DNA from: Rubrivivax sp.
Lineage (GTDB): Bacteria; Pseudomonadota; Gammaproteobacteria; Burkholderiales; Burkholderiaceae_C
NCBI GenBank assembly: GCA_027490215.1
Contig: JAIXYO010000029.1
Span: forward strand, 186,001 to 250,000
Length of the DNA stretch: 64,000 nucleotides
Direction of reading: 5' to 3'
Part shown: piece after piece, positions 29,578-58,815 of the stretch
Layout: each line of letters opens with the position of its first letter
Position numbering within the stretch: position 1 is the first letter of the stretch
Translations under genes and position numbers: made by a program
Notes under the pieces: model-generated
The model's database searches: none
Told to the model about the DNA's origin: nothing
The model's input: only the letters and a program-made list of their open reading frames with translations

Positions 29578-30696
29578 GTGACCGCTACCGCCACCCTTGA
29601 CGAGCCCGTCGTCAACGCATCGCCAGGTGTCGCACTCGACCCCGCCTGGCAGGAACGGGCCCGAAGCCTGATCGGCGACCTTTTCAGCCGCTCCGCTGCG
29701 ATCTACTGGACCGACCTGCTTCTGAGTTCGGCTGCGGCCTGGGCGCTGACGGCGACCTACTTCATCGCGCCCGCCTGGAGCGCGCTGCAGATCTTTGCAT
29801 TCCTCGGCGCCAGCGTGCTGTTCTTCCGCGTCGGCACCTTCATCCACGAGATCGTCCACATGCCGGGCAGCCAGATGACCGGTTTCAAGCGCGCCTGGAA
29901 CGTGCTGCTGGGCATCCCCTTGCTGATGCCGTGGGTGCTGTACCGCAACCACATCGAGCACCACAACCACCTGCAGTTCGGCACGCCGGCCGACGGCGAG
30001 TACCTGCCGCTGGGTTCATCGCCACAGACCGAGACACTGAAATACGTCGGTCAGGCGCCCCTGCTGCCACTGTTCATGATCGTGCGTTTCGGCGTGCTGG
30101 GCCCGCTGTCATGGCTGCACAGCGGAATGCGTGAATGGGTGCTGACGCGAGTTTCCGCGGCGGTGTCGAACCCTTTTTACGCCAAGCGCTTTCCGAAGCG
30201 CGACGAGCGGCACCTGCTGATCGTCGAGGCGCTGTGCTTCGCCTACCTGGCCACGATCGCCTTCCTGATCTGGCAGGGTTCGATCAGCATCACGCAGTTC
30301 TTCATGGGCTATGCGCTACTGGCCTTCACCCTGGCGCTGAACTGGGTGCGCAACCTGGCGGCGCACCGTTATGTCAATGGTGGTCAGCGCATGACGATGG
30401 CCGAGCAGGTGGCCGAGTCGATCAACATCACCGGGCAGACCTGGCTGACGGTGTTCATGTTTCCGGTCGGCCTCCGATACCACGCGCTCCACCACATGTT
30501 CCCTGCCTTGCCCTACCACCACCTGGGCGAGGCGCACCGGCGACTGATGGCAGGTCTTCCCGCTGATGCGCTCTACCGGGGCTGCAACCGCGACAGCTAC
30601 TTCACCGCCGTGCGCGAGTTGTGGCAATCGGCCCGGCAGACGCCTCGCGGCGAGTCAGCGATGCGTGCCTGGTCGCCGGGCAACGGGCGCTCTTGA
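29578..30696 (+). CDS. Membrane fatty acid desaturase/hydroxylase
   Basis: This 372-residue di-iron membrane enzyme has His boxes HEIVH (about residue 90), HIEHHNH (about 125) and HALHHMFP (about 305), between four hydrophobic spans. That is the FA_desaturase layout. The start is a GTG (29578) shortly after a TTTTTTT run at 29558-29565. It overlaps the lipid-kinase gene (TTGA), placing it first in the lipid operon. An acyl chain or sphingoid-base desaturation/hydroxylation role fits the cluster; the actual substrate is not shown. Confidence 0.87.
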   Translation: MTATATLDEPVVNASPGVALDPAWQERARSLIGDLFSRSAAIYWTDLLLSSAAAWALTATYFIAPAWSALQIFAFLGASVLFFRVGTFIHEIVHMPGSQMTGFKRAWNVLLGIPLLMPWVLYRNHIEHHNHLQFGTPADGEYLPLGSSPQTETLKYVGQAPLLPLFMIVRFGVLGPLSWLHSGMREWVLTRVSAAVSNPFYAKRFPKRDERHLLIVEALCFAYLATIAFLIWQGSISITQFFMGYALLAFTLALNWVRNLAAHRYVNGGQRMTMAEQVAESINITGQTWLTVFMFPVGLRYHALHHMFPALPYHHLGEAHRRLMAGLPADALYRGCNRDSYFTAVRELWQSARQTPRGESAMRAWSPGNGRS

Positions 30697-31700
30697 ACGC
30701 GCGCGCCCCCGCGCTGGCGACGCCGGTCCCCCTGGTCCTTGCCACGGCAAGCGCGCCCCCGTGCCTGATCGTCAACCCGCGCAGCTTCAGCGCTTCGCGA
30801 GGCCTGGCGATTCAGGCCACGGCGCTGGCGAAATCTCACGGCGCCGAAGTGATCAGCGTCGATGACCCGGACGCCACGCGCGCCGCCATCGCAGCGATCC
30901 TCGCGCGGCGCCAAAGCCAGGTCATGCTGCTGGCTGGCGACGGTACGGTATGTGCCATCGTCGATCAGCTGTCGAGCTTGCCTGCAGGTGCCTGGACGCC
31001 GGATCTGCTGGTGCTACCTGGAGGGCGAACCAACCTGACGGCAGCCGACCTGGTGCCGGGTGGTCGGGCGTTGCCGACCTTGAAGCGGGCGCTGCTGCTC
31101 GCCCATGAGCAGCGCTGGGATGCTGCAGTGGAAGAGCGCTGTGCGCTGCGCATCGAGCAGTCCGGCGCGCCGATGCGACACGGCTTTTTCTTCTCGGCAG
31201 CGCTGATCGACAGTGTGATCCGCCAGTGTCATCAACACCGTGCCGAGCTCAAATCGCAAGGTGACCTCAGCACGATCGGTTACCTGCTGCGGCTAGGCGC
31301 TCGCTCGCTGCTCGGGCGCTCCGGCATGCATTGCCCGCGCCTGCACGTGGACGCCGGCGCCAGCGGCACACAAGACGGGCCAGTGCGGCTGGTGCTCGCG
31401 ACCACGCTGCTGCACCGTACCGGTCTGTTCGATCCGTATGCGCCGCGGGGCCAAGGCAATGTGCGAGTGACCTCCGTCAGCGAAGACGCACCGCGCTTCT
31501 GGCGCACGCTGCCGCGGCTGTTGACCGGGCGGTACACCCCGGCGATGAGTGCCGACAACGGCTACCTCAGCGGACGCTGCGATCAGGTGACGATCAGCGG
31601 CCTCGCCAGCTACATGCTGGACGGCGAACCTTTCGACGCCGACCCGAGCCGGCCGGTCACCATCGGCACAGGCCCACGCCTGCGTTTCATTCGGCCATGA
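30693..31700 (+). CDS. Lipid kinase, DAGK-catalytic family (ceramide kinase candidate)
   Basis: This protein of about 335 residues shows the diacylglycerol/sphingosine-kinase fold. LIVNPRSFSASRG near residues 25-37 is the NP-S motif. LLAGDGTVCAIVDQL follows, with GDGT at 82-85 as the ATP loop. The C-terminal beta-sandwich ends in YMLDGEPFD, the family's DGE motif. Start TTG 30693 overlaps the desaturase stop; a GTG at 30621 is a longer alternative. Bacterial ceramide kinase CpgB of Caulobacter belongs to this broad family, and here the gene lies in a sphingolipid cluster. Phosphorylation of ceramide is therefore the leading guess, with diacylglycerol as the alternative. Confidence 0.75.
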   Translation: MNARAPALATPVPLVLATASAPPCLIVNPRSFSASRGLAIQATALAKSHGAEVISVDDPDATRAAIAAILARRQSQVMLLAGDGTVCAIVDQLSSLPAGAWTPDLLVLPGGRTNLTAADLVPGGRALPTLKRALLLAHEQRWDAAVEERCALRIEQSGAPMRHGFFFSAALIDSVIRQCHQHRAELKSQGDLSTIGYLLRLGARSLLGRSGMHCPRLHVDAGASGTQDGPVRLVLATTLLHRTGLFDPYAPRGQGNVRVTSVSEDAPRFWRTLPRLLTGRYTPAMSADNGYLSGRCDQVTISGLASYMLDGEPFDADPSRPVTIGTGPRLRFIRP

Positions 31701-33466
31701 GCAAGAAGCAAAAGGCCAAGACGCAACCCAGCCGCGCGCTGCAAATGATCGGTGCGTTTGTTCGCGCCTACCCGGGGCGCAGTGCGGCAGCGCTGGTGGC
31801 GGTCTTCGTGGCAGGGCTGACAGACAGCCTGGGCATGTCGATGTTGCTGTCGATGCTGTCGTTCGCCACGAACACGGGCGCCCACACACCGTCGATGCCA
31901 GAGAGGGTCGCAATACAGGTGACGCAGTTCCTGGGGCTGCAGCCCACCACGGCAGTGCTGTTGACGCTGTCGACGGTGCTGATCGGGCTGAAGGCAGTGT
32001 TGTCCCTGGTTGCCAACCGACAAGTCGGCTACACCGTTGCCAACATCGCCACCGACCTGCGGCTCGCACTGATCCGCTCAGTGATGTCCGCACGCTGGAC
32101 TCACTATCTGGATCAATCGGTCGGGCGCCTGACCAATGCCGTCGCCAGCGAGGCACAGCGCGCCTCCGAGGCGTTCCAGCACAGCGCCGAGATGGCGGCC
32201 ATGGTCCTCAATGGCCTGATCTTCCTGGCTGTCGCGCTGTCGATTTCATGGCAGGCCGGCGTGGCCGCGATCATCGCCGGCGCCCTGCTGCTGTTCGCGC
32301 TGCACACGCTGGTGCGCAGTTCGCTGCAGGCAGGCCGACAGCAGACCGTGCTGCTGAGATCACTGTTGTCGGTGATGGGAGGGCAGATGGCAGCCGCGAA
32401 GGCGCTGAAGGCGATGGCCCGCGAGGACCATGTCGATGCACTGCTGTCTGACCAGACACGAGCCCTGCGTCGGGCCCTGCGCCGTCAGGTGATCAGCCGC
32501 GAGGCGATGAGCGCGCTGCAGGAGCCGTTGCTGGCGATCATGGTCGGCGTCGGCTTCTTCTTCAGCCTGGTCGTGCTGAAGATGCCGCTGGCCGAAGTGC
32601 TGGTGATGGTGTTCCTGCTCGCTCGCACCGTCAGCTACCTGTCGAAGGCTCAGCGTGCGTACCAGCAGGTTGTCCTGCGCGAAAGTGCGTACTGGTCAGT
32701 GATGGATCACATCAATGATGCTCGCGCCGAAGTCGAACCCCCGGGTGGCGATCAGCGGGTGGCCCTGATCGAAGGCATACGCTTCGAGGACGTGAGCTTC
32801 AGCCACGGCGAACGTCGTGCGATCGTCGAGCACGGCACCTTCACCGTACCTGCGCAGCAATTGACGGTCATCATCGGGCCGTCGGGCGCGGGCAAGACCA
32901 CCTTGCTGGATCTGGTCGTTGGTCTGCTGAGGCCGACTGACGGTCGCATCCTCGTCGATGGCGTGGAGCTCAGCGAGCTGGATCTGCGCCAGTGGCGGCG
33001 ACAGATCGGCTACGTGCCGCAGGAATCGGTGATGGTCGATGAATCGGTGGCCTACAACGTCACGCTGGGTGAGGTCGGGATCAGCGACGAACAGATCCGC
33101 ACGGCGTTGCGCGCCGCCGACGCGCTCAGTTTCGTCGAGGCCATGCCCGAAGGGCTGCAGACCCGCGTCGGCGAAGGGGGTTCGCGCTTGTCCGGTGGCC
33201 AACGACAGCGCCTGGCCATCGCCCGCGCGCTGGTGCACGAGCCACGGCTGCTGATCCTCGATGAGGCCACCAGCCATCTGGATGCGGAAGCGCAGGCAGC
33301 GGTGATCGAAGCCGTCAAGCACCTGCGAGGCCGGTTGACGATTCTGGCCGTCGCGCACCAGGACCTGTTGATCCAGGCGGCCGACTGCGTGTACCGACTG
33401 GCCGACGGGCAGCTCAGCGCTTTGCAGCCGCCGGTCAAGTCCACCCCACTCACGGCGCACGTCTGA
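31697..33466 (+). CDS. ABC exporter, MsbA-like lipid type
   Basis: This 589-residue half-transporter has six transmembrane helices (about residues 25-320) fused to an ATPase domain. Walker A is GPSGAGKTT (394-402), the Q-loop is YVPQESVM, the signature is LSGGQRQRLAIARAL, Walker B is LLILDEATSHLD and the switch His is in AVAHQD. ATG 31697 overlaps the kinase stop (ATGA). Its place between a lipid kinase and an acyltransferase suggests flipping of a lipid across the inner membrane, as MsbA does for lipid A. Substrate identity is inferred. Confidence 0.85.
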   Translation: MSKKQKAKTQPSRALQMIGAFVRAYPGRSAAALVAVFVAGLTDSLGMSMLLSMLSFATNTGAHTPSMPERVAIQVTQFLGLQPTTAVLLTLSTVLIGLKAVLSLVANRQVGYTVANIATDLRLALIRSVMSARWTHYLDQSVGRLTNAVASEAQRASEAFQHSAEMAAMVLNGLIFLAVALSISWQAGVAAIIAGALLLFALHTLVRSSLQAGRQQTVLLRSLLSVMGGQMAAAKALKAMAREDHVDALLSDQTRALRRALRRQVISREAMSALQEPLLAIMVGVGFFFSLVVLKMPLAEVLVMVFLLARTVSYLSKAQRAYQQVVLRESAYWSVMDHINDARAEVEPPGGDQRVALIEGIRFEDVSFSHGERRAIVEHGTFTVPAQQLTVIIGPSGAGKTTLLDLVVGLLRPTDGRILVDGVELSELDLRQWRRQIGYVPQESVMVDESVAYNVTLGEVGISDEQIRTALRAADALSFVEAMPEGLQTRVGEGGSRLSGGQRQRLAIARALVHEPRLLILDEATSHLDAEAQAAVIEAVKHLRGRLTILAVAHQDLLIQAADCVYRLADGQLSALQPPVKSTPLTAHV

Positions 33467-34405
33467 ATGGACCTGGCTCGGCAACTGCGACGCCGGCGTC
33501 GCCGCGCGACGTTCCTCGGCCTGCGCAGGCTGTTGCGTGTCATCGGCTTCCGGCACGCACGCACCCTGGGCAGTTGGCTGGGCGACTTGCAGTTCTGGCT
33601 CGGGTGGCGACGGCGCCGACGCCTGCAGCGCGAGATCGCCCAGGTGCTGGGGCGACAGGCCGATGATCCTTCGGTGCGTACGCTGCTGCTGCAGGCGTAC
33701 AGGGTGAACAACGGCGCGGTGATGGAGATCATGGCGATGTTCGATGAGCGCCAGGACGAAAGCACGCTCGCGGCACGCTGCGAACTGGGCGGCCTGGAGC
33801 ACCTGCGCGCGGCCATGAGCCAGGGACGCGGCGCGATCGTGCTGGCGAACCACATGGGCAACGCCAGCCTGGCCATGGTCCGGCTGGCGCAGTCCGGCTT
33901 GCCGGTCTCGTTGCTGTACCGCAAGGCCCGGATGATGTCGGACGGATTTTTCCAGAGTGGGCTGGAGCAGTACGGCATCCAGGCCATCCTCGCCAACAGC
34001 GGTATCCGCGCCTACGGCCAGATGCTGGCTGCGCTGAAGCAGGGTCGCGTGCTGTTCCTGATGATGGATCAGGGCTTGCAAAAGGCCGATGACGGCGTCA
34101 TGCAGCGCTTCCTCGGCAAGGACGTGCCGATGCCTGCAGGCCCCGCACAGTTGGCACGCGTCTCACGTTCGCCGGTGTTGCCGATGGCGGCCGTCGCGGC
34201 CTCGCCGGTGTGGCGTTTTGAGATCCAGCCACAACTGACCCTCGGGCAGGGAACGCTGGAAGCCGATGTGGACTTCCTGACCCGACTGACCGAAGCGCAG
34301 GTGCTGCAACACCCGGAGCTGTGGAGTTGGCATCACCGGCGCTGGAGCAAGTTGCCGATGCCAAGCGCTCCACCGCCAGCCGGTGAAGGTATGCCTCACG
34401 CCTAG
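33467..34405 (+). CDS. LpxL/HtrB-like acyltransferase with altered catalytic motif
   Basis: This 312-residue protein has a very basic N-terminus (several Arg runs) and the Lip_A_acyltransferase fold. The block AIVLANHMGNASLAM matches the family position NHFGNWE, but the acidic residue of the H-X4-D/E dyad is Ser134 (His129). Later blocks, LLYRKARMM and VLFLMMDQGLQKADDGVMQRFLGK, fit the family. With the dyad broken, acyl transfer by the usual mechanism is doubtful; the enzyme may use another base or have become a lipid-binding protein. It starts right after the exporter stop. Confidence 0.7.
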   Translation: MDLARQLRRRRRRATFLGLRRLLRVIGFRHARTLGSWLGDLQFWLGWRRRRRLQREIAQVLGRQADDPSVRTLLLQAYRVNNGAVMEIMAMFDERQDESTLAARCELGGLEHLRAAMSQGRGAIVLANHMGNASLAMVRLAQSGLPVSLLYRKARMMSDGFFQSGLEQYGIQAILANSGIRAYGQMLAALKQGRVLFLMMDQGLQKADDGVMQRFLGKDVPMPAGPAQLARVSRSPVLPMAAVAASPVWRFEIQPQLTLGQGTLEADVDFLTRLTEAQVLQHPELWSWHHRRWSKLPMPSAPPPAGEGMPHA

Positions 34406-35592: not shown

Positions 35593-36543
35593 ATGACACG
35601 GCAAACAGTCGCTGTCACTGGCGCCACTGGTTTCATTGGTCAGCATCTGGTCGCGGCGCTGCACGCAGCAGGTTGGCGTACTCGATTGCTGTTGCGCCAG
35701 CAATTGAACAACTCAATGTGGCGTGATTTGCGACCTCAAGTCGTGTTGGGGTCGCTCGAAGATGAAGCTTCGCTCGCGCGCTTGGTCGACGGCGTCGACG
35801 CGGTGATCCACGTGGCTGGCTTGATCAAGGCCGCACGGCGCCGGGATTTCTTTGCCATCAATCTGGATGCGACCGCGAAGCTGGCGCGTACCGCGGAGCG
35901 ACTCGCACCGCGCGCACATTTCCTTCATCTTTCCAGCCTCGCCGCACGCGAGCCTGCTCTGTCCGACTATGCCGCCAGCAAGCGCGCGGGCGAGGAAGCA
36001 GTGCTCGACATCCTCGGTTCACGCACCACAGTGCTGCGACCACCGGCCGTGTATGGGCCGGGCGACCGCGAAACCTTGCGCATCTTCAAACTCGCCCGCC
36101 AACGGCTGGTGCCCGTACTGGGTACGCCCGATGCCGTCGTGGCGATGATCCACGTACAGGACCTCACGCGATTGATCATCACGCTGATCGCAGCACAACC
36201 CCGCGGAGAGGTCCTGACCGCCGCCGATGGCATGCCCGCGGGATACCGCTGGCGAGAACTGCTGGCAGCGGCCGCGCAGGCGGTCGGCAATCCGTCGCCC
36301 CGATTCGTGGATGCGCCGCAGAGCCTGCTGGGGGTGGCCGCACTGCTTGGAGACCTGGCTCGCGCCGTCGGCACGGCCAGCATGCTCAGCACCCAGAAGC
36401 TGCGAGAACTGCGCCATGCTGACTGGGGGGTGGCACCTTCAGAACTGGCTCGACCCGCTGGCTGGGAAGCTCAGTTCGATCTCCATCGCGGCTTCGCCGA
36501 TGCCGTGGCCTGGTACCGTTCCGCGGGCTGGCTACCGAGCTAG
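35593..36543 (+). CDS. cerR: NAD-dependent epimerase/dehydratase-fold reductase, CerR-like
   Basis: This 316-residue extended SDR protein has a Rossmann loop VTGATGFIG (residues 8-16), an IHVAGLIKA strand, LSSLAAREP, an SDYAASKRAGEEAV active site (Tyr-x3-Lys), and LRPPAVYGPGDRET. In Caulobacter the ceramide-pathway reductase CerR is an epimerase-fold protein of this kind that reduces 3-keto-ceramide/sphinganine intermediates. The presence of spt, ACP and a bCerS-like gene in the same cluster supports that role here. Upstream starts exist (ATG 35560, TTG 35530). It ends the plus-strand operon begun by the desaturase. Confidence 0.72.
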   Translation: MTRQTVAVTGATGFIGQHLVAALHAAGWRTRLLLRQQLNNSMWRDLRPQVVLGSLEDEASLARLVDGVDAVIHVAGLIKAARRRDFFAINLDATAKLARTAERLAPRAHFLHLSSLAAREPALSDYAASKRAGEEAVLDILGSRTTVLRPPAVYGPGDRETLRIFKLARQRLVPVLGTPDAVVAMIHVQDLTRLIITLIAAQPRGEVLTAADGMPAGYRWRELLAAAAQAVGNPSPRFVDAPQSLLGVAALLGDLARAVGTASMLSTQKLRELRHADWGVAPSELARPAGWEAQFDLHRGFADAVAWYRSAGWLPS

Positions 36544-36713
36544 AAGGCTGGAACGCACCACGACCTGCCCTGCGTATGACTCGTTGGTGCGCGTTGAGCC
36601 TCACGCCCGTTTTCACCGGGCGAACGAGGCCGCAACCTTCTGTCCCCTCTCCAGGCCTCGGCTAACATCGCCCCGGCATTGGACCAACTGCTTGACTTTC
36701 GGAGCTCTCTCAG
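36544..36713. promoter_or_regulatory. Operon boundary with small inverted repeats
   Basis: In these 170 nt a GCCCG/CGGGC stem with a seven-base loop and a CGCACCA/TGGTGCG pair occur just after the CerR-like gene, and could end that transcript. A GGAG Shine-Dalgarno precedes the next start codon. I cannot place a convincing -35/-10 pair. Confidence 0.35.
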
Positions 36714-37508
36714 ATGCCTGAGCACACCGCGATTTCCCTGGACGCGCAACCCATCCCGCTGGATGAACAGGTATTCATCGCCAGTATCGACCGTGCCCCG
36801 CTCGAGTCGCAGCCCTGCGATCACATCAGCTTGCGCGACCTGTTTCCACCGGCGTTCTATCGACAGTTGCTGGATAGCGTTCCACCAGTCAAGTACTTTC
36901 ACGAACTGAGGCATCGCGACGCCATACAGCCCGATGGCACCAGTGCACGGCTGCGTCTTTATCTGTACCCCGAGCAGTTGTGGTTTCTGCCGGCGGCGCT
37001 GCGTGCACGCTGGGCACCACTGGCGCGGCTGCTGATGTCGAAGACGCTGGAAGATGCGTTCAAACGGAAATTCCAGAGCGCGCTGGAAGCGCGGTTCGGC
37101 TGCTCGATCGACCGCCTTCGGTTTTATCCGATCCCGATCATCGTGCGTGACCTTCCCGGCTACCGAATCGGCATCCACGCCGACGTCCCGAAGAAAGCCA
37201 TCACCGTGCAGTTCTATCTGCCAAGGGACGAGTCGCAGAAGCACCTGGGCACCGTGTTCCATGACGGCCCTACCGGTGAAGCAGCACTGCGCACACGCAA
37301 GATGCAGTTCCTGCCCGCCAGTGGCTATGCGTTTCCGGTCCAGATGGAAGAAAGCTGGCACAGCGCCGAAACGACGACCCCTGCGGATGGTGAGCGTATG
37401 TCGATCATGCTCACGTACTACGTTCAGGACACCCCTTCGCTGTGGTTCTCCAGACGTGCCGAACGTCTGCTTAGCTTCCTGGGAATGCCACCAAATCCCA
37501 AAATCTGA
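36714..37508 (+). CDS. Putative Fe(II)/2-oxoglutarate-dependent oxygenase
   Basis: This 264-residue protein has the double-stranded beta-helix ligand pattern: GIHADVPKK gives His155-x-Asp157, SWHSAE gives His216, and GERMSIMLTYY gives Arg228, the likely 2-oxoglutarate anchor. The N-terminal 100 residues resemble no named domain I know. Because it lies inside the lipid cluster, hydroxylation of an acyl chain, sphingoid base or glycan is possible. The substrate is unknown. It is transcribed alone and is convergent, by 10 nt, with a glycosyltransferase gene. Confidence 0.65.
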   Translation: MPEHTAISLDAQPIPLDEQVFIASIDRAPLESQPCDHISLRDLFPPAFYRQLLDSVPPVKYFHELRHRDAIQPDGTSARLRLYLYPEQLWFLPAALRARWAPLARLLMSKTLEDAFKRKFQSALEARFGCSIDRLRFYPIPIIVRDLPGYRIGIHADVPKKAITVQFYLPRDESQKHLGTVFHDGPTGEAALRTRKMQFLPASGYAFPVQMEESWHSAETTTPADGERMSIMLTYYVQDTPSLWFSRRAERLLSFLGMPPNPKI

Positions 37509-37518
37509 TCGCCGACGA

Positions 37519-50482: not shown

Positions 50483-51271
50483 TCAGGCCGTTACCGAAGC
50501 AGACTGCTTCTCGACGTTCCAGGTCGACGCCAATTCCCGTACCTGAACCAGATCGGCCGGGAAATCGAGCTCGCCCCACTGCAGCCCTTCAATGGAGACA
50601 ACGCGTACATCGGCACCCGCGTTGGCGAGTCGATTGATCGCTGAGAGGTACCACAGGCCCGGGCCCTCGGGCGTGCGCATCGTGCGTTCGAGTTCGGCGA
50701 CGAACAAGGCCGCGCCGTCTGCGTCGAATCGGAGAAAACCGATCGATTCGCCGTTGACGCGATCAGCGGTCAGCGCCTTGCCAATCGCTCGCAAGTGATC
50801 CCCCTCAGTCACGACCTTCATGTCGTCAGCGTCGTAAGCCTCCTTGCGGTCGATGGTGACCGTGATGGGCGCACTGGGTGCGGCCAGCAAGCGGCCCGCA
50901 ATCTCCGGTTCGAACAGCGTATCGCCGTTGAGAATCATGCACGGCCCGCTGAGCTCGGCGCGCGCCATCCAGCAACTCGCGAGGTTGTCGGCCAGCTTGT
51001 AGAAAGGGTTGTACAACGTGCGCACGCGCAACTGTGTGAGCGCCACCCGATTCAACTCGGCCTCGACCAGATCCGGAAAGAACCCAGTCACCACCACGGC
51101 CTCGGCGACGCCCATCTGGTCCAGGGCGCGCAGTTGCCATTCCAACATGCTGCGCCCCCCCAGATCGATCAGGCACTTGGGCATCTTTTCGGTCAATGGC
51201 AGCAGGCGGCTGCCTTGTCCGGCACTCAGGATGATGGCGCGGTGGGGTTTGGTCACGTTGCTGGCTTTCAC
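50483..51271 (-). CDS. LicC-like nucleotidyltransferase (phosphocholine/alcohol-phosphate cytidylyltransferase family)
   Basis: This 262-residue protein has the nucleotide loop AIILSAGQGSRLLPLTEKMPKCLIDLGG and the motif LYNPFYKLADNLASCWMAR, which is typical of the phosphocholine cytidylyltransferase group. MILNGDTLFEP carries the metal Asp. It would make a CDP-linked small alcohol (choline, ethanolamine, glycerol or inositol type), the substrate needed by the cluster's phosphotransferases. The start is a GTG at 51269-51271. It follows the phosphopantetheinyl transferase gene by 23 nt on the minus strand. Confidence 0.8.
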   Translation of the reverse strand: MKASNVTKPHRAIILSAGQGSRLLPLTEKMPKCLIDLGGRSMLEWQLRALDQMGVAEAVVVTGFFPDLVEAELNRVALTQLRVRTLYNPFYKLADNLASCWMARAELSGPCMILNGDTLFEPEIAGRLLAAPSAPITVTIDRKEAYDADDMKVVTEGDHLRAIGKALTADRVNGESIGFLRFDADGAALFVAELERTMRTPEGPGLWYLSAINRLANAGADVRVVSIEGLQWGELDFPADLVQVRELASTWNVEKQSASVTA

Positions 51272-51294
51272 AGTACGGCAGTTAAACGGCGAGC

Positions 51295-51975
51295 TTACCG
51301 TACCGTGCTGGAGAAGGTGAGCTCGGTGTCGCGTTCAAGCGCCGACCTCGCGACGCGGTGAAAGCTCAGCTGGCATGGCAGCTCCGCAAGCGCCAGGTGA
51401 GCCACGTGGCGCCGGCCGACGGGCACGCTGGCGGTGTGCCACAGATTGCCGGCAAAGGCAGCGAGGTTCTCGCCGTGTGTCGTGTCGACCCGGGCTACAT
51501 CGCGCAGCCCCCGCTGGCTGGCCGCCTTGGCCACGGCCTCCTTTCGGGTCCACACAGAATAAAAACGTCGTGTGCTGCGCCCAGCCCAAGCACGCTCGGC
51601 CGCACTGAGGTACAGATGGAAGTCTCCTGCGATCAGACCACCCAGCGCTTCGACATCGATGCCGACCGCACCCTGCGTAGACAGCGCACAGACAATGCGC
51701 CCATCGCAATGGGACAGGCTGAAACTGACCGGCAACGCCAGCGTCGGTCGGGAATTCGTCGGATAGCGCAGCGTGGCCAGTGCATCGTCCCCATGACCCA
51801 GTCGCCGCAGCCCGAGGGTCAGCAGGCGGCTGCCGACCAGGGAACGATGGCGCGATGGCGTGTCGGGCCAAGCGCCAATCTGCATGCGTCGCGGCGGCGG
51901 CAGGCTCGCCAACCACTGCGCTTCGAGAGCGGGCGACAACGCGAACTCAGAGGTGATCAGCACCGACACGGTCAT
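51295..51975 (-). CDS. Sfp-type 4'-phosphopantetheinyl transferase
   Basis: This 226-residue enzyme has the paired signature blocks VGIDVEAL (Mg-binding Asp/Glu) and FYSVWTRKEAVAKA (W-x-x-KEA-x-K), plus FSLSHCDGRIV upstream, as in Sfp/AcpT proteins. It attaches phosphopantetheine to carrier-protein serines. Two carrier domains lie nearby, fused to the first acyl-AMP ligase (Ser610) and in the free ACP (Ser53), so this is probably their dedicated activator. It is divergent from the P450 gene over a 51-nt gap. Confidence 0.88.
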   Translation of the reverse strand: MTVSVLITSEFALSPALEAQWLASLPPPRRMQIGAWPDTPSRHRSLVGSRLLTLGLRRLGHGDDALATLRYPTNSRPTLALPVSFSLSHCDGRIVCALSTQGAVGIDVEALGGLIAGDFHLYLSAAERAWAGRSTRRFYSVWTRKEAVAKAASQRGLRDVARVDTTHGENLAAFAGNLWHTASVPVGRRHVAHLALAELPCQLSFHRVARSALERDTELTFSSTVR

Positions 51976-52026
51976 CGCAGGGGCGCCTGTCGTGTGCGTG
52001 ACACAATTTGAGGGTCGAAACAGAAA
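51976..52026. promoter_or_regulatory. Short divergent promoter region (PPTase / P450)
   Basis: Only 51 nt lie between the two divergent start codons, so the two promoters must overlap or extend into the genes. GTGT and ACAC flank a five-base spacer at about 51991-52003. A GAGG at about 52011-52014 could serve the P450 start. Confidence 0.4.
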
Positions 52027-53331
52027 ATGATTATGGTTCAGGAAGTGCAGGCCCCCGGCCCATCAGAGCGCCACGACCTTGACGCCAACGACGAAAGCGC
52101 AAGCCTGCTGTTCGATCTGTCGCAGCGCTATGGCGACACCTTTCGCCTCACCTCGCAAAGCCGCAGCAACGACAGCCTGGTGATCCTGAACGCCGACGAC
52201 ATCCGTCGGGTCTTGCAGACAAACCGGGGCAACTACATCAAGGGCATCGGCATCGAGCGCGTGCGCGTGCTGCTCGGGAATGGGCTGATGGCCAGCGAGG
52301 GTGAGCTCTGGTCTCGGCAGCGGCGCCTGGTGCAACCGGCCTTCCACAGTCAGGTGATCCGCAGTTTCTCGGCGCTGATGCACCAAGCGAATGTCGACCT
52401 GATTGACCGATGGAGCGGCCATGCCGCACGCGGCGAACCCGTGAACCTGACGCACGACCTCAGCGAGCTGGCCCTGAACATCGTGCTGCGCGCCTTGTTC
52501 GGCACCGACCTCGATCGCCTGATCGACGCCAAGGGCTGCAATCCGTTCGATCTGCTGACCAGCGAGACACGGCGCGACCTGCCCTTTGCCGCAAAATTCC
52601 GAGCGCTGACCCACCATGTGCTGAACATGATCGCGGCCCGGCGCCAGGAGCAGCGCATCGAGATGGACCTGCTGTCGACGCTGATGGAAGTGCGCGACCG
52701 CGACACGGGCGAAGCGATGCCCGATCGGGCCCTTCTGGACGAACTGATGACGCTGATCGTGGCCGGCCATGAGACCACCGCCAGCGCGCTCAACTGGACC
52801 TGGTACCTGCTGTCACAGAACCCGCAGGTCGAAGCCCGGCTGCACTCGGCCATCGCCGAACCTGCATCGGCCCCGGGGCCCGCGGAGGCGTCTTCAGCCA
52901 CGGCGCCTTACGTCGAGCAGGTGCTGCAGGAAGCCTTGCGCCTGTATCCGCCGGGGTGGTTGTTCACCCGGCGTGCCTTGGCTGACGACGTGCTGGGCGG
53001 CTTTCACGTGCCAGCAGGCACCGATGTGTTCATTTGTCCCTACATGCTGCACCGCCAGACCACGCACTGGGACCAGCCCGAAGTTTTCGATCCACTGCGC
53101 TTCGAGCCGGCCGCGGTCGATGCGCGCCATCGCTTCGCATACCTGCCGTTTTCTGCGGGACCGCGGTACTGCATCGGTGCCACCTTCGCGATGGCCGAGA
53201 TGACGATGCACCTCGCCATGGTCGCCGATCGATTCCAGTTGCGATACGACGGCACCGTTCCACCCGCGGCAGAATTCCAGGTCAACCTGCGCTCGCGTCA
53301 CGACCTCCACATGCGTCTTGTGGCGCGCTGA
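52027..53331 (+). CDS. Cytochrome P450
   Basis: This 434-residue soluble P450 has no membrane anchor. The I-helix oxygen-binding motif is AGHETTASALNW, the K-helix is EALRLYPPGW (E-x-x-R), the PERF-like region is FDPLRFEP, and the heme loop is FSAGPRYCIGATFA with Cys382 as ligand. Family resemblance is to the CYP102/CYP4-like fatty-acid group rather than to the terpene group. It heads the operon P450, acyl-AMP ligase, acyl-AMP ligase, ACP, serine palmitoyltransferase-like. Hydroxylation of the acyl chain or sphingoid base is therefore likely. Confidence 0.9.
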   Translation: MIMVQEVQAPGPSERHDLDANDESASLLFDLSQRYGDTFRLTSQSRSNDSLVILNADDIRRVLQTNRGNYIKGIGIERVRVLLGNGLMASEGELWSRQRRLVQPAFHSQVIRSFSALMHQANVDLIDRWSGHAARGEPVNLTHDLSELALNIVLRALFGTDLDRLIDAKGCNPFDLLTSETRRDLPFAAKFRALTHHVLNMIAARRQEQRIEMDLLSTLMEVRDRDTGEAMPDRALLDELMTLIVAGHETTASALNWTWYLLSQNPQVEARLHSAIAEPASAPGPAEASSATAPYVEQVLQEALRLYPPGWLFTRRALADDVLGGFHVPAGTDVFICPYMLHRQTTHWDQPEVFDPLRFEPAAVDARHRFAYLPFSAGPRYCIGATFAMAEMTMHLAMVADRFQLRYDGTVPPAAEFQVNLRSRHDLHMRLVAR

Positions 53332-53342: not shown

Positions 53343-55298
53343 ATGCTGCCTTTCGAGACACTCAACGCGATCCTGCCGGCGGACGTGCGCGAGGATCGCC
53401 AGATCACCTTCATCGAAGGTGAGAACGAACAGCGCACGATGAGCTTCCGGCGGCTGCGCCAACGCGCTGTCGGCGCCTTGGGCGCGCTTCAGCGCCGTGG
53501 CCTCAAGCGCGGCGACACGCTGATCCTGTTCATTGCCGACAACGAACGCTTCGTGGAAATGTTCTGGGCCTGCGTGCTCGGTGGCATCGTGGCGGTACCG
53601 CTGGCACCAGGCGTCGCAGACGAACACTGGCGCAAGCTGCTGCGGGTGTTCGCCCAGCTCGATCAATCGCTGGTCGCCATCGACGCGCCCACATTGGACC
53701 GCTTCGAAAGTTTCGTTTCCACGCACCGCCTTGAGCACGAAGGGCAGCAGCTTCGCGCACGCACGGTGATCGTGGGAGGCCTCGACATGGCCGGCGAGCC
53801 TGGCGTTCCGGCGCTGTCCGATCCGGGCGACCTTGCGTTCATCCAGTACTCATCGGGCTCGACTGGCGACCCGAAGGGCGTGATGCTGACGCACAGAAAC
53901 CTCACGGCGAACATCGCGTCGATCATCGAGGGCGCGGCCTTCAACGATCAGGACTCGGTGATGAGCTGGATGCCCTTGTCGCACGACATGGGCCTGATCG
54001 GTTTCCACCTGACCCAGTTGGCCAGCGGCATCAACCACGCGATCATGCGCACCGAGTTGTTCGCACGGCGGCCACTGCTGTGGCTGGACCTCGCGAGCCA
54101 GCGACGCTGTACCGTGCTGTGTTCGCCGAACTTTGGTTTCCAGCACTATCTGCGGCAGTACGAACACCGGCCACCGCAGGGCCTCGATCTGTCATCGGTG
54201 CGGCTGATCTTCAATGGAGCGGAGCCGATCTCGGCGGAAGTCTGCCGACGCTTCACGCGCACGATGTTGCCGCATGGGCTGAAAGCGGGCGCCATGTTTG
54301 CCGTTTATGGCCTGGCCGAAGCGAGCCTGGCCGTCAGCTTCGCGCAGCGCGGAACGCCACTCGAAACGGTCGTCGTCGACCCCACGCGGTTGCGCGTTGG
54401 CGAACCCGTGCGCCACGAGGCGCTGAACGGCGGCCGGGTGACCGAGTTGGTCAAGCTCGGGCTACCGCTCAGCGGTGTCGAGTTGCGCATCGTTGATGAG
54501 AGCGGCAAGACACTGGGCGAACGCATGATGGGCCAGTTGCTGATCCGCGGGGACAACGTGACCGCAGGCTACTTCCAGGATCCGGCACGCAGCGCAGAGA
54601 TCATCTCGGCCGATGGGTGGCTGGCCACAGGCGACCTGGGCTTTCTGTGGGATGGGCAACTCGTCATTGCCGGCCGGGAGAAGGATCTGGTCATCATCAA
54701 TGGTCAGAACCACTACCCGCATGACCTGGAGCGCATCGCAGCCGAGGTCGTTGACATCGAGGCCAACCGCGTCGCCGCCGCGGGCGTGCGCGGTCCGGTG
54801 GCCGACACGGAAGAATTGGCCTTCTTCGTGATCCATCGTGCAAGCGTCGCCGACTTCCTGCCCAAGGTCATTGAACTGCGTCGCAAGATCCAGCAGCAAA
54901 CCGGCCTGGAAGTTGCTCATGTCGTACCCGTGCGGCAAATTCCAAAGACCAGCAGCGGAAAACTGCAACGCTATGCGCTCGCCGAGGCGTTCGAAATGGG
55001 TGAATTCGACGCACCCCTGGCCGAGATTGAGCGTCTGCTTGAGCAAAGAATTGTTGCGGAGCAGCGCACAGGAACTCCGACAACACAGCGCCTGCAGCAA
55101 ATCTGCGCGGCATTTGTCGTCGATCGACAACTGACGCCACAGACCAACTTGCTGGAAATTGACCTCAACTCGCTGACTTTGGCTCGCATCCACGAAGCCA
55201 TCGAGCGCGAATTTCCGCAACGCGTTCAGGTCACTGACCTGTTCGACTACCCCACGCTGGAGCAACTCGCGGAGTTTCTGGATACCACTACAGCGTGA
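53343..55298 (+). CDS. Fatty acyl-AMP ligase fused to a C-terminal acyl carrier domain
   Basis: This 651-residue protein has an N-terminal adenylation domain of the FAAL group: IQYSSGSTGDPKGVMLTHRNL (P-loop), SWMPLSHDMGLIG, VYGLAEASLAVSF, ATGDLGFL and IVINGQNHYPHDLE. A C-terminal PP-binding domain follows, with phosphopantetheine Ser610 in EIDLNSLTLARI. It would activate a free fatty acid as acyl-AMP and load it onto its own carrier or the neighbouring ACP. The start ATG 53343 lies 11 nt after the P450 gene. Confidence 0.9.
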   Translation: MLPFETLNAILPADVREDRQITFIEGENEQRTMSFRRLRQRAVGALGALQRRGLKRGDTLILFIADNERFVEMFWACVLGGIVAVPLAPGVADEHWRKLLRVFAQLDQSLVAIDAPTLDRFESFVSTHRLEHEGQQLRARTVIVGGLDMAGEPGVPALSDPGDLAFIQYSSGSTGDPKGVMLTHRNLTANIASIIEGAAFNDQDSVMSWMPLSHDMGLIGFHLTQLASGINHAIMRTELFARRPLLWLDLASQRRCTVLCSPNFGFQHYLRQYEHRPPQGLDLSSVRLIFNGAEPISAEVCRRFTRTMLPHGLKAGAMFAVYGLAEASLAVSFAQRGTPLETVVVDPTRLRVGEPVRHEALNGGRVTELVKLGLPLSGVELRIVDESGKTLGERMMGQLLIRGDNVTAGYFQDPARSAEIISADGWLATGDLGFLWDGQLVIAGREKDLVIINGQNHYPHDLERIAAEVVDIEANRVAAAGVRGPVADTEELAFFVIHRASVADFLPKVIELRRKIQQQTGLEVAHVVPVRQIPKTSSGKLQRYALAEAFEMGEFDAPLAEIERLLEQRIVAEQRTGTPTTQRLQQICAAFVVDRQLTPQTNLLEIDLNSLTLARIHEAIEREFPQRVQVTDLFDYPTLEQLAEFLDTTTA

Positions 55299-55511
55299 AA
55301 CGATGGCAATCGGTCAAAATATCAGGCTTGAGTCAACTGCCGCGGGGTCTCGGTTGGCGGTTTCCGCAACATGTTGTGCCGATCATGACAGTTTGATTGC
55401 ATCGCGGACGCGCTCAATTTACATTTCCCAGCGGCCGAAGGCTTGCAGTACGAAAGGGTGAGGGTTGAAAGATTACTTGCGAGGCCAGCATGGCCGTCAG
55501 AGGTGTTACCA
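55299..55511. other. Intergenic region before the second acyl-AMP ligase
   Basis: This 213-nt interval is longer than the other gaps of this operon. The open frame to its right can be extended upstream to 55443 without resemblance to the family. It is slightly less GC-rich than its neighbours and may hold an internal promoter; no firm -35/-10 pair could be assigned. Confidence 0.4.
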
Positions 55512-57323
55512 GTGAATGCTGCGGCACCTTTCCACGCCAGTGTGACCCCGACCGCGAGCGGTATCGCACTGCGCAGCGCGGACTTTCCGACCCTGGCTGC
55601 GGCGCTTGATTACGCGGCCGGCGGTGATTCCGGCTTCAACTATTACGACGGCCGTGGCGCACTCATCGCCACACTCCCCTACAGCGAACTCCGCGCGCGT
55701 GCGCTCGAGATGTCGCGACGCCTGGCACCACTGGGGCGAGGGCAGCGGCTGGCGCTTGTCGCGCACACCCACCCTGATTTCGCGGTGATGTTTTACGCCT
55801 GCCAGTACGCGGGCCTGGTGCCTGTGCCACTGCCAGCGGCAGTGCACCTCGGCGGCCGCGAAGCCTATATCAGGCATTTGCGCCAATTGGTGCGCGACTC
55901 CCAGGCGGTGGCCGCCTTTGCGCCGCCAGAGTTTGTCGGCTTCCTGCGCGAGGCCAGCGAGGGCCTGTCTCTGACACTGGTCGGGACGGCGCAGGATTTC
56001 GCAATGCTGCCCGCCCTGGACACCACGCCGCGGCCGCCGGAGCCCAGCGAGCTCGCTTACCTGCAGTACACCTCCGGCAGCACCCGTTTTCCGCGGGGAA
56101 CGATGATCACCCAGTCGGCGGTCATGGCCAATCTGAAGGCGATCTTCAACCATGGTTTCCAGTTGACGCCAGAGGATCGTTTCTGTTCCTGGCTTCCGTA
56201 CTACCACGACATGGGTCTGGTCGGTATCGTTCTGGGCTGCGTTGCCACGCAGCGCTCGGTCGACTATTTGCCGACACGCGATTTCGCGATGCGTCCTCGT
56301 TTGTGGCTCAAGCTGATGTCGCTCAACCGCTCCACGATCTCGTTCAGCCCACCATTCGGATACACCCTGTGCGCTCGGCGCTTGCGACCTAGCGACACCG
56401 AAGCGCTGGATCTGTCGGCATGGCGCGTGGCCGGCGTTGGCGCCGAGATGATCCACCCCAAAACCCTGCATGAGTTCGCCTCGGTACTGGCGTCGGCGGG
56501 TTTCAATGAGACTTCCTTCCTGCCCTGCTACGGGATGGCGGAATGCTCGCTGGCAGTCAGCTTCGCGCCGCTCGAAACCGGTGCCAGCAGTGATGTGGTC
56601 GACATCGACCGACTGGCGCATCACGGTGAAGCCATTGCGATGTCAGCTGAGGAAACAGCTGCGAAAGGAAAGGCTTTCATCAATTGCGGCCAACCACTGC
56701 CGGGCTACGAGATGGAGATCCGGGACGAACGCGGCAGGCCCTTGCCGGAGCGTCGTTGCGGTCGAATCCATCTGCGCGGACCGAGCCTGATGTCCGGATA
56801 CTTCGGCAACCCGGAGGCGTCTCGCGAGGTGCTTTCCGCTGATGGCTGGCTGGACACAGGCGACATTGGCTACCAAGCGAATGGCTCCTTGTATATCACC
56901 GGTCGGGCCAAGGACCTGATGATCATCAAGGGCCGCAACATCTGGCCGCAGGATCTGGAGCATCTGGCCGAGCAGGAACCTGAAGTGCGGCCGACCGACG
57001 CATCGGCGTTCTCGATCACAGATGACGACGGAAGCGAAACCGCTGTGCTTGTCGTGCAATGCCGCGAAGCTGATCCACGCAAGCTGGCCAGCCTGGCCGA
57101 ACGTGTCCAGCAGGCGATCCATGTGGAATTTGGCATCCACTGCGTCATCGAACTCGTGCCGCCGCACACTCTGCCCCGGACATCGTCGGGCAAGCTGTCG
57201 CGCAGCACCGCACGCAAGGAGTTCATAGAGCGACGCAGCGCCGAGGAACCGACCGAGTCCCGCGGCCGTTTCGTGGGTCATGCCCGGCGCTCAGCCATTG
57301 AGGCCGAGAGCGCAGCGTCGTGA
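55512..57323 (+). CDS. Fatty acyl-AMP ligase / acyl-ACP synthetase
   Basis: This 603-residue adenylating enzyme starts at GTG 55512, chosen for its AGAGG Shine-Dalgarno. Blocks are LQYTSGSTRFPRGTMITQSAV, SWLPYYHDMGLVGIVLG, CYGMAECSLAVSF, LDTGDIGYQANGSLYITGRAKDLMIIKG and a C-terminal LPRTSSGKLSRS with the catalytic Lys. It has no carrier domain and is followed, with a 4-nt overlap, by a free ACP gene. In Caulobacter an acyl-ACP synthetase next to acp and spt supplies the sphingolipid pathway; the same arrangement is seen here. Confidence 0.88.
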   Translation: MNAAAPFHASVTPTASGIALRSADFPTLAAALDYAAGGDSGFNYYDGRGALIATLPYSELRARALEMSRRLAPLGRGQRLALVAHTHPDFAVMFYACQYAGLVPVPLPAAVHLGGREAYIRHLRQLVRDSQAVAAFAPPEFVGFLREASEGLSLTLVGTAQDFAMLPALDTTPRPPEPSELAYLQYTSGSTRFPRGTMITQSAVMANLKAIFNHGFQLTPEDRFCSWLPYYHDMGLVGIVLGCVATQRSVDYLPTRDFAMRPRLWLKLMSLNRSTISFSPPFGYTLCARRLRPSDTEALDLSAWRVAGVGAEMIHPKTLHEFASVLASAGFNETSFLPCYGMAECSLAVSFAPLETGASSDVVDIDRLAHHGEAIAMSAEETAAKGKAFINCGQPLPGYEMEIRDERGRPLPERRCGRIHLRGPSLMSGYFGNPEASREVLSADGWLDTGDIGYQANGSLYITGRAKDLMIIKGRNIWPQDLEHLAEQEPEVRPTDASAFSITDDDGSETAVLVVQCREADPRKLASLAERVQQAIHVEFGIHCVIELVPPHTLPRTSSGKLSRSTARKEFIERRSAEEPTESRGRFVGHARRSAIEAESAAS

Positions 57324-57613
57324 GCTTGTTGTCCAGCAAATCGGCGGAGCCTGCCTCCTTGAGCGAAACCACAGCATCGGTGGAATCGACCATACGAGAA
57401 GCGCTGGGCGTGATTCGCCCCGATGCAATGGGCATCCGCGGTGATGCCGATCTGGCACAGGAGGCCGATCTGGATTCCGCCGAGGTCATGGACCTCGTGA
57501 TGGAGATTGAGGATCGACTCGACCTGTCGATTCCCGTGGAGACCATGGCTCAGGCGCGCACCATCGACGAGCTTTGTGCAGGCATCGTCCAACTGAAACA
57601 TGGCACGCCATGA
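57320..57613 (+). CDS. Acyl carrier protein of the sphingolipid pathway
   Basis: This 97-residue acidic carrier protein has the phosphopantetheine site in DLDSAEVMDLVMEIEDRL (Ser53), with the DSA rather than the usual DSL motif. An N-terminal 25-residue extension precedes the four-helix domain. It is flanked, with 4-nt overlaps on both sides (GTGA, ATGA), by the acyl-AMP ligase and the serine palmitoyltransferase-like gene. It very probably carries the acyl chain presented to that enzyme. Confidence 0.9.
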   Translation: MSLLSSKSAEPASLSETTASVESTIREALGVIRPDAMGIRGDADLAQEADLDSAEVMDLVMEIEDRLDLSIPVETMAQARTIDELCAGIVQLKHGTP

Positions 57614-58815
57614 GTCTTCTCGATAAGTTTTCCGTTCAGCGCGGACTGGCTGCCAGCCTGGCTGAAAACAGCCGGGTGGCCCCGATCGCCACACCGATGG
57701 ACGACGTCCATTCAGCCACCTCGGCCACGATCAATGGTCGCCGTGTGATCCTCGCCGGGACCAACAACTACCTCGGATTGACCTACGACGCCGACTGCAG
57801 AGCTGCAGCAATCTCCGCGATTGAATCGTTGGGCACCGGCACAACCGGCTCTCGCATGGCCAGCGGCAACTATGCGGGGCATCGCGCCCTGGAACACTCC
57901 CTGGCCAGCGCCTTCGGCTGGCCGGCGGCGATCGTCTTTTCGACCGGCTACCAGGCCAACCTCGGCACGCTGTCGGCCCTGGCCGGCGAGGGTGACACCC
58001 TGCTCGTCGATGCCGATAGCCACGCCAGCATTCACGATGGCTGCAGACTCAGCCACGCCACCACCATCCGCTTTCGCCACAACGACCCGGAAAATCTGGA
58101 CCGTCGCCTGGAGCGCCTGGGTGAGGCGGCCAGCCGCACATTGGTCGTCGTCGAGAGCCTGTACAGCACGCTGGGCGACCGCGCACCGCTGCGCGAGATC
58201 GTCGAGATCAAGAAGCGCCACGGGGCCTGGCTGCTGGTCGATGAGGCCCATTCCTTTGGCGTGTTCGGGCCACGCGGGCTGGGTCTGTGCGAAGACCAGG
58301 ATCTGCTCGGCGAGGTTGACTTCATCGTTGGCACCTTTTCGAAGAGCCTCGGCGGCGTTGGCGGGTTCTGCCTCGGCCGACATGCCGAAGTGGAATTCAT
58401 GCGCATGGTCAGCCGACCCTACATCTTCACCGCGTCACCACCACCGCCAGTGATCGCCGCGACGCATCAGGCGCTGCGCAAGGTGCTGCAAGGTCACGAT
58501 CTGCGTGCGCGGCTGTCGCGCCACGCGGAACGGGTCTACGGCGAGTTGAACAAGCTGGGATTCCGGCTCGGCACGACGACGCCCGGCCCGGTCGCTGCGG
58601 TCGTCTTCGACTCGCGCGACGATGCACTGGCGTTGTGGCAGAGCCTGCTCGATGCGGGCATCTACACCAACCTGATGATTCCGCCGGCCACACCGTCCGG
58701 CCTGAGCCTGGTGCGCATCAGCCTGAGCGCCGCGCAAAGCGACGACGACATCGCACAGATCATTGCCGCTCTGGCAGCACACGCGCGGCGAGCCCGCCCT
58801 CCGCTGGCGGCCTGA
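57610..58815 (+). CDS. spt: Serine palmitoyltransferase-like alpha-oxoamine synthase
   Basis: This 401-residue PLP enzyme of the oxoamine synthase family condenses an amino acid with an acyl thioester, giving 3-keto-sphinganine when the pair is serine and palmitoyl-ACP/CoA. Marks are GTNNYLGLTYDADC, GTGTTGSRMASGNYAGHRALE, DADSHASIHDGCRLS, LLVDEAHSFGVFG (PLP-ring Asp) and FIVGTFSKSLGGVGG with the Schiff-base Lys245. Length and the upstream ACP fit bacterial SPTs of the Caulobacter/Sphingomonas kind. KBL, AONS or CqsA-like roles are alternatives, but the bCerS-like and CerR-like genes favour sphingolipids. Confidence 0.85.
   Translation: MSLLDKFSVQRGLAASLAENSRVAPIATPMDDVHSATSATINGRRVILAGTNNYLGLTYDADCRAAAISAIESLGTGTTGSRMASGNYAGHRALEHSLASAFGWPAAIVFSTGYQANLGTLSALAGEGDTLLVDADSHASIHDGCRLSHATTIRFRHNDPENLDRRLERLGEAASRTLVVVESLYSTLGDRAPLREIVEIKKRHGAWLLVDEAHSFGVFGPRGLGLCEDQDLLGEVDFIVGTFSKSLGGVGGFCLGRHAEVEFMRMVSRPYIFTASPPPPVIAATHQALRKVLQGHDLRARLSRHAERVYGELNKLGFRLGTTTPGPVAAVVFDSRDDALALWQSLLDAGIYTNLMIPPATPSGLSLVRISLSAAQSDDDIAQIIAALAAHARRARPPLAA

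Follow-up and report, generated by a model that had tools for sequence, protein, structure and literature searches.

The 64,000-nucleotide window of the Rubrivivax sp. genome analysed here probably carries, at positions 29578-58815, a phosphosphingolipid cluster of the Rhodobacteria type: a ceramide core, head-group genes of the ceramide phosphoglycerate (CPG) and CPG2 pathway, a dedicated LptF2/LptG2 pair, and an added module that may serve acyl oxidation and acylation. The source genome (3.51 Mb, 72 contigs) is 99.6% complete. We read the gene content by scanning the open reading frames (ORFs) of the window with Pfam and NCBIfam profiles, and denote genes by their lowest coordinate. A first-pass annotation had proposed a very large locus joining ceramide synthesis, tailoring, head-group and export genes; nearly all of the gene classes it listed were found at or near the positions it gave, and family matches, trees and gene order back the sphingolipid core, the phosphorylated head group and the export genes. 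To its list we add an LpxL-like acyltransferase, an ELM1-like protein, a metallophosphoesterase and a HIT protein. The locus represents a known pathway in variant form and no new class, and such a cluster is already known in a betaproteobacterium, Nitrosomonas eutropha, as the available parts of PMC11324152 (section 9) and PMC9386255 describe. Its distinctive parts are the acyl-oxidation/LpxL module, a second CDP-alcohol phosphotransferase and a CpgC-like protein with a Tam41-like predicted fold. Gene identity, conservation, the predicted fold and the restricted spread of the module were computed directly.

The strongest single result is the match of the 57610 product to NF047599, the equivalog model of serine palmitoyltransferase (SPT); the models for AONS, KBL and ALAS stay below their own cut-offs. 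In the Protein Data Bank (PDB) its ten top matches are SPTs without exception, led by 2x8u (1.4e-120), and AONS does not appear before 1e-58; the product is 50% identical to the SPT of E. coli BL21(DE3), an enzyme assayed according to the available text of PMC9386255. A quick tree of 51 SPT-like rows places it within an 11-row Burkholderiales set (support 100*), nested in 23 rows (support 92) together with the E. coli and Azotobacter SPTs. Twelve of 13 background AONS/KBL-like rows lie on the opposite side, and the thirteenth (L031) sits on a very long branch. NCBIfam, the PDB ranking and the tree thus rule out AONS or KBL.

The other core genes give a similar picture. An acyl carrier protein (ACP) gene lies directly upstream of spt, and a 40-row tree of fatty acyl-AMP ligases (FAALs) divides in two with full support: the 55443 product is one of 26 rows that include E. 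coli AasR, and the 53343 product one of the remaining 14, which puts 55443 in the AasR clade. The 35593 product scores 167 bits against BL21 CerR and at most 54 bits against four background short-chain dehydrogenases/reductases, which lie on one side of a branch with support 85 in a 38-row tree (the matched segment of L190 was taken as a background row; the RfbD and L049 rows were left out). The SPT and CerR phylogenies had been called for in advance by the first-pass annotation, and in them neither product groups with unrelated enzymes. The bCerS-like product aligns with its homologs over the full length. CerR and bCerS orthologs complete the core.

The head-group genes comprise orthologs of ceramide kinase, CpgA, CpgC, CpgD and a CofC-like enzyme, assigned by gene order and by identity to Azotobacter vinelandii. 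In the A. vinelandii locus (L113) the window homologs are ordered 42363-30621-41428 and 48525-49652-50483, in agreement with the Caulobacter numbering CC_1159-1160-1161 and CC_1154-1153-1152. The CPG2-type clusters of A. vinelandii and N. eutropha carry kinase, CpgC-like, CpgA-like, bCerS and CofC-like homologs at 28-50% identity (40-46% over 98-99% of the length for 42363); the CpgD-like gene has a 55% homolog in A. vinelandii and none within the N. eutropha locus retrieved. According to the available text of PMC12275187, CpgD makes CDP-glycerate; its residues R16, K26 and D112 have counterparts R22, K32 and D117 in the 50483 product, with like spacing by our own matching. Since the head-group genes look like known CPG/CPG2 orthologs, phosphoglycerate is the default reading of the head group. 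The second CDP-alcohol phosphotransferase (47314) is 28% identical to the first. The three predicted types of nucleotidyltransferase were recovered: one with a Tam41-like predicted fold, one MobA-like, and one nearest to CTP:phosphocholine cytidylyltransferase. The suggestion of a perhaps new phosphosphingolipid holds for the phosphorylation; the likeness to CPG/CPG2 orthologs favours a known head group.

The ORF holding the whole 41428-42366 protein has zero Pfam families at E ≤0.001 (its fragment 41431-42312 none at E ≤1), so we call the protein Tam41-like in fold only. Since its best E in a sequence-profile search of the PDB was 0.53 or worse, the fold search alone was informative. An AlphaFold2 model built from 23 homologs has a mean pLDDT of 88.5, and its top five Foldseek matches in the PDB are all Tam41 CDP-diacylglycerol (CDP-DAG) synthases (E 7.8e-8 to 3.5e-7; TM by query 0.49-0.54), followed by antibiotic nucleotidyltransferases at 1e-4. 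Sequence identity to Tam41 is 10-15% at a TM of ~0.5, and the substrate of the window enzyme would be ceramide-1-phosphate. The accessible text of PMC11324152 reports an InterPro CDP-DAG-synthase domain in CC_1161 and suggests an NDP-activated ceramide, and that of PMC12275187 calls the CpgC mechanism unidentified; for this step the cluster offers a Tam41-fold candidate. The predicted fold supports, and does not prove, activation of the lipid as CDP-ceramide. As a separate observation, the cpgC-like gene may start with GTG within a GTGA (42363-42366) that overlaps the stop of the phosphotransferase gene, which suggests translational coupling.

The Caulobacter crescentus cluster CC_1152-CC_1168 has in common with the window AasR, AcpR, SPT, CerR, bCerS, ceramide kinase and CpgC, and further a CDP-alcohol phosphotransferase, the phosphoesterase, the CofC-like and CpgD-like nucleotidyltransferases and LptF2/G2. 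Beyond its 17 genes, as far as they are described in the text read, the window has the 4'-phosphopantetheinyl transferase (PPTase), the P450, a FAAL with a fused ACP domain (FAAL-ACP), the LpxL-like gene, the second CDP-alcohol phosphotransferase, an in-cluster desaturase and variable glycosyltransferases. In the available text of PMC11324152, CPG2 formation is ascribed to eleven Caulobacter genes, and the species named as having orthologs include A. vinelandii, P. luteola and N. eutropha, a betaproteobacterium; the N. eutropha orthologs are spread over three regions, and both A. vinelandii and N. eutropha are stated to lack CC_1158. In agreement, their loci gave no metallophosphoesterase match; they also have one CDP-alcohol phosphotransferase gene and no PPTase or P450 match. 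The spt locus of E. coli BL21(DE3) shares YghO, AasR, CerR, AcpR, SPT and LptF/LptG with the window; neither the 13 BL21 proteins nor five Escherichia loci (L122, L123, L124, L128, L131) include kinase or CDP-glycerate-type head-group homologs.

We read the corresponding regions from 8 of the 14 other genomes of the genus, choosing the longest contigs and accepting matches at E ≤1e-10; the named records of the genus are metagenome-assembled genomes (MAGs), such as 'Burkholderiales bacterium PBB1' and 'Ga0077547'. Sixteen genes recur in all eight: CerR, 41428, 42363, the metallophosphoesterase, HIT, LptF, LptG, bCerS, both remaining nucleotidyltransferases, PPTase, P450, both FAALs, ACP and SPT. 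The block 29578-34405 is present in seven, with the desaturase at 73-95% identity, and the contig of the eighth (G006) ends before it. The 47314 phosphotransferase occurs at ≥69% in six and the ELM1-like gene in five. This pattern shows that the core and head-group genes are stable. A close SPT (≥82%) was found in 15/15 genomes of the genus, the window's own included, and together with the 16 recurrent genes this indicates that the cluster is not a chance assembly.

None of nine genomes from other genera of the family has a close SPT, and five of them give matches of at most 36%; among 11 same-family genomes listed in the order-wide search one (G617) has a close SPT, in a locus that shows core genes only, so that the SPT is not strictly confined to the genus. 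SPTs over the family cut-off occur in 16/399 genomes of the order and 16/274 of the class, both counts including the window's genome; the controls E. coli, Caulobacter vibrioides and Bacteroides ihuae were detected in both surveys, two of the three over the cut-off. The cluster recurs in isolates of Variovorax (N23), Ramlibacter alkalitolerans and Schlegelella, and is partly seen in Panacagrimonas; the Schlegelella koreensis locus has no P450.

The new part relative to the CPG2-type genomes compared is a tailoring module: FAAL-ACP, in most cases accompanied by a P450 and a PPTase, and in addition the LpxL-like acyltransferase and the second CDP-alcohol phosphotransferase. From a scan with bCerS we kept the best 80 of 248 confirmed matches, 53 of them in loci of at least 20 kb. 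FAAL-ACP (≥50% identity, >90% coverage) is present in 14/53 of these long loci, the P450 in 12, all within the same 14, and the PPTase in all 14 and in L118; the second CDP-alcohol phosphotransferase (≥60%) occurs in 13/53, namely in 12 of the 14 and in L066. Genome-wide searches of 14 chosen genomes recovered full-length FAAL-ACP orthologs (58-64%) in six: Variovorax N23, two Ramlibacter, Schlegelella, one Burkholderiales MAG (L070) and Panacagrimonas. The other eight have none, two of them giving a 33-35% match. The second phosphotransferase was seen in the loci of the same six genomes. LpxL-like orthologs (47-64%) occur in the six and in G394 and G434, the remaining six genomes giving 25-30% matches or none. 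The P450 (E ≤1e-60) is found in 15/15 genomes of the genus and in 0/10 other NF047599-matching genomes, nine of which are over the cut-off. A. vinelandii, A. chroococcum, N. eutropha and two Solimonas lack FAAL-ACP and close LpxL-like orthologs genome-wide, which bears out the word 'extended' of the first-pass annotation; in a search confined to their loci, these five also showed no PPTase, P450 or second phosphotransferase. We found no description of a P450/FAAL-ACP combination in a sphingolipid locus in the literature, judging by titles and abstract starts, with most subscription papers outside the search. The module is the only case we found of such a pair inside a sphingolipid locus, and the genera that carry it include isolates (Variovorax, Ramlibacter).

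In the gammaproteobacterium Panacagrimonas perspica (L072, 2860-21125), head-group genes of the Burkholderiales type and the module are present at 49-74% identity. Two other members of its family, Solimonas terrae and S. marina, have no FAAL-ACP genome-wide. This distribution suggests horizontal transfer.

The genome has four LptF/LptG genes, two in the window and two on contig C56, so that the cluster holds a second pair, as in CPG/CPG2 clusters. Compared with the BL21 proteins, LptG is 24% identical and LptF hardly matches (22%, E 0.003). The MsbA model gives 746 bits (cut-off 602) for a gene on contig C9 and 219 bits for the window ABC gene, which is therefore distinct from the housekeeping MsbA. 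Eleven of the best 80 bCerS loci have an ABC gene 37-48% identical to the window's over ≥90%, all outside the set of extended clusters (L086, L090, L097, L098, L102, L113, L115, L117, L125, L132, L133). The flippase for sphingolipids was not identified according to the available text of PMC11087976; the cluster offers a candidate in its MsbA-like exporter, which we regard as a lead, ABC exporters being common in general. In Caulobacter, survival without lipopolysaccharide (LPS) is described as partly dependent on CPG2. For the source organism itself LPS loss was ruled out, LpxC being present in the genome.

Every chemical step proposed for the source organism is one that we infer from these genes. 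AasR (55443) would load the ACP (57320), and SPT (57610) would condense the acyl chain with serine; bCerS (48525) would N-acylate and CerR (35593) reduce the product, and the kinase (30621) would form ceramide-1-phosphate. The Tam41-like enzyme (41428) would probably activate this as CDP-ceramide, the CpgD-like enzyme (50483) would make CDP-glycerate, and the two CDP-alcohol phosphotransferases (42363, 47314) would assemble the phosphoglycerate head group, with the phosphoesterase and HIT proteins clearing by-products. The ABC exporter would flip the lipid and LptF2/G2 would export it. In the added module, the PPTase (51295) would arm FAAL-ACP (53343), which would load itself with a fatty acid; the P450 (52027) would oxidise the ACP-tethered chain, and the LpxL-like enzyme (33467), or bCerS, would pass the oxidised chain to the lipid. 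We put this module mechanism forward tentatively, as having somewhat less than an even chance of being right. Taken further, the product would be a lipid A-like sphingolipid: a P450-oxidised, ACP-bound chain would be added by an LpxL-type enzyme to a ceramide phosphoglycerate derived from CDP-ceramide, which would reach the outer membrane by its own MsbA-like and LptF/G route, parallel to LPS. This fuller picture is possible but rather doubtful.

The module might instead be a bystander. The cluster would then make ordinary CPG/CPG2 only, and P450, FAAL-ACP, PPTase and LpxL-like gene would form a separate lipid or natural-product module brought next to it by chance. The LpxL-like gene does lie ~18 kb from the P450/FAAL-ACP pair in the window, and the pair can evidently work alone. 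In the order-wide sample, five genomes besides the window's own carry FAAL-ACP relatives at 41-44%; none of them is among the 17 SPT rows of a search that seems to have used this very set of 399 genomes, and for which not all negatives are listed. A P450 (47-49%) adjoins FAAL-ACP in three of the five (G587, G326, G322), which are genomes without a close SPT. On its other side FAAL-ACP there borders a PF03279 acyltransferase gene (two consecutive ones in G322), and in G587 a PPTase comes next; in the fifth genome, G368, the locus ends at a contig end. Such pairs beside an LpxL-type acyltransferase suggest that a chain bound to an ACP is oxidised and then passed to a lipid, and we read the three SPT-free cases as a possible self-contained unit for fatty-acid loading, oxidation and acyl handover, which may have been taken up into the sphingolipid cluster. 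Against chance proximity, the module has the head-group genes on one side and AasR-ACP-SPT on the other, not only in the window but also in 8/8 genomes of the genus read, in Variovorax N23 and in Ramlibacter alkalitolerans; in Panacagrimonas it trails the same head-group genes by ~4.5 kb; and the eight other genomes searched have no FAAL-ACP ortholog anywhere. We consider a separate module unlikely, while giving it real weight. The SPT-free loci (L191, L192, L193), each with one or two lipid A-type acyltransferase genes, may also belong to another lipid pathway of the Burkholderiales.

Two further alternatives concern the head group. Another CDP-activated alcohol, such as inositol phosphate, could be attached by the two CDP-alcohol phosphotransferases and an IMPCT-like nucleotidyltransferase: both phosphotransferases have NCBIfam matches to inositol-phosphate synthases and 50483 one to IPCT/DIPPS, and the PDB matches of 42363 include phosphatidylinositol synthases. 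However, all of these NCBIfam matches are far below cut-off, so we rejected inositol as the first choice; Caulobacter CpgD resembles IMPCT yet takes phosphoglycerate (PMC12275187, in its available text), and the gene order in the window is that of a CPG2 cluster. We regard such a head group as improbable. The main product could also be a complex glycosphingolipid with the glycosyltransferases as its defining feature, as two clear GT4 genes stand inside the cluster and Caulobacter makes a glycosphingolipid under phosphate starvation (title of PMC6445935). Yet the glycosyltransferase genes vary, the first two having no homolog of at least 50% in the eight genomes of the genus read, which makes this reading improbable as well and leaves the 'glyco' part of the first-pass annotation weak.

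Several observations weigh against the phosphosphingolipid reading or against its extension by the module. The evidence for the pathway consists of genes, trees and one predicted fold, and the orthology between window and CC_ genes rests on family, A. vinelandii gene order and the available text of PMC11324152. CerR is periplasmic in Caulobacter (PMC11087976, available text), so that reduction may come before or after phosphorylation. The parts of the module are not strictly linked: G394 and G434 have the LpxL-like gene without FAAL-ACP or P450, and two members of the genus, G002 and G010, carry the module but no second phosphotransferase. Two clusters that are extended in other respects (L069, L070) lack the P450. 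In G665 (L194), RmuC and competence genes stand beside FAAL-ACP, and no P450 lies within this short locus. The sole LpxL-type protein beside an SPT-free pair that matches the window's does so at 26% over 66%. The Panacagrimonas and Ramlibacter H39-3-26 loci showed no SPT; they end, or are rearranged, ahead of its expected place.

Table. Genes of the sphingolipid cluster, with the evidence for each assignment
Position	Strand	Assignment	Evidence
29578-30696	+	Membrane fatty-acid desaturase/hydroxylase family; possible acyl or long-chain-base hydroxylase/desaturase	PF00487 1.4e-27
30621-31700	+	DAGK-type lipid kinase, probable ceramide kinase (CpgB/CC_1160 by A. vinelandii gene order); start codon uncertain	PF00781 2.7e-8; neighbours in L113
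31697-33466	+	MsbA-like ABC exporter, candidate sphingolipid flippase	PF00005/PF00664
33467-34405	+	LpxL-like lipid acyltransferase	PF03279
34408-35523	+	ELM1-like protein	PF06258
35593-36543	+	CerR-like ceramide reductase, NAD epimerase/dehydratase family	37% to BL21 CerR
36714-37508	+	Possible Fe/2OG oxygenase (motif only), accessory	Motif
37519-38685	-	GT4 glycosyltransferase, variable region	Pfam
38972-40204	-	GT4 glycosyltransferase, variable region; start inferred	Pfam
40320-41411	-	Possible glycosyltransferase, variable region	Sub-threshold PF13524
41428-42366	-	CpgC (CC_1161)-like, Tam41-like predicted fold; probable CTP:ceramide-1-phosphate cytidylyltransferase	AlphaFold2, Foldseek, gene order
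42363-43490	-	CDP-alcohol phosphotransferase, CpgA (CC_1159)-like, intact motif	PF01066
43475-44524	+	Calcineurin-like metallophosphoesterase, CC_1158-like; start ~43601	PF00149
44541-45002	+	HIT-family protein; start approximate (~44541)	PF01230
44920-46212	+	LptF2, second LptF; true start probably after 45002	PF03739
46253-47317	+	LptG2, second LptG	PF03739
47314-48528	+	Second CDP-alcohol phosphotransferase	PF01066; motif
48525-49655	+	bCerS-like ceramide synthase (YghO family)	45% to BL21 YghO over 372 aa; alignment
49652-50428	+	MobA/CofC-like nucleotidyltransferase (CC_1153 position)	PF12804; gene order
50483-51271	-	CpgD-like, candidate CTP:phosphoglycerate cytidylyltransferase (CC_1152 position)	NTP_transferase; best PDB match CTP:phosphocholine cytidylyltransferase
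51295-51975	-	PPTase	PF01648 (ACPS); motif
52027-53331	+	Cytochrome P450, candidate acyl-ACP hydroxylase	PF00067 3.5e-76
53343-55298	+	FAAL with fused C-terminal ACP domain, outside AasR clade	PF00501 + PF00550; tree
55443-57323	+	AasR-type acyl-ACP synthetase (FAAL); start codon uncertain	NF006624 778.7 (cut-off 600); 49% to BL21 AasR; tree
57320-57613	+	AcpR-like ACP	PF00550; 44% over 43 aa to BL21 AcpR
57610-58815	+	SPT	NF047599 574.1 bits (cut-off 500)

The region from 36.7 to 41.4 kb is a variable cassette between the cerR and cpgC-like genes, with both flanks conserved. Among the eight genomes of the genus read, none has a ≥50% homolog of the genes at 37519-40315, G013 having one gene that matches at 33-41%; the 40320 gene has a homolog in three and 36714 in two. 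The third of the glycosyltransferases in the first-pass annotation (40320-41411) gave the sub-threshold match alone, the other two being clear. Its Fe/2OG oxygenase at 36714-37508 agrees with the motif and not with any family: the product has zero Pfam, NCBIfam or PDB-profile matches, and its predicted model is poor (pLDDT 52). An HxD...H...RxS-type pattern, which we take to be the Fe/2OG oxygenase motif, is invariant across the only three rows aligned. The minus-strand ORF 36540-37691 was rejected as a gene, having no Pfam match and homologous stretches of 40-47% identity versus 66-70% for the plus-strand frame. The ORFs 50191-50637, 50592-50798, 50795-51361 and 51358-52011 were likewise discarded: they have zero Pfam matches and overlap supported genes.

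Elsewhere in the window, positions 14289-21725 encode a 2478-residue RTX-repeat protein with 21 RTX stretches, likely a large secreted protein. Upstream of it (6628-10502) lie genes for an ABC exporter with a peptidase-C39-like domain and a HlyD-family protein, a type I secretion pair, and directly behind the HlyD-like gene a glycosyltransferase (Glyco_trans_4_3 and GT1; 10499-11806). Positions 1546-3426 encode a protein of 626 residues that combines beta/gamma-crystallin domains with a glycine-zipper segment. The TsaE-domain protein at 26852-28126 has ~270 residues ahead of the domain, possibly a second domain or the result of a wrong start.

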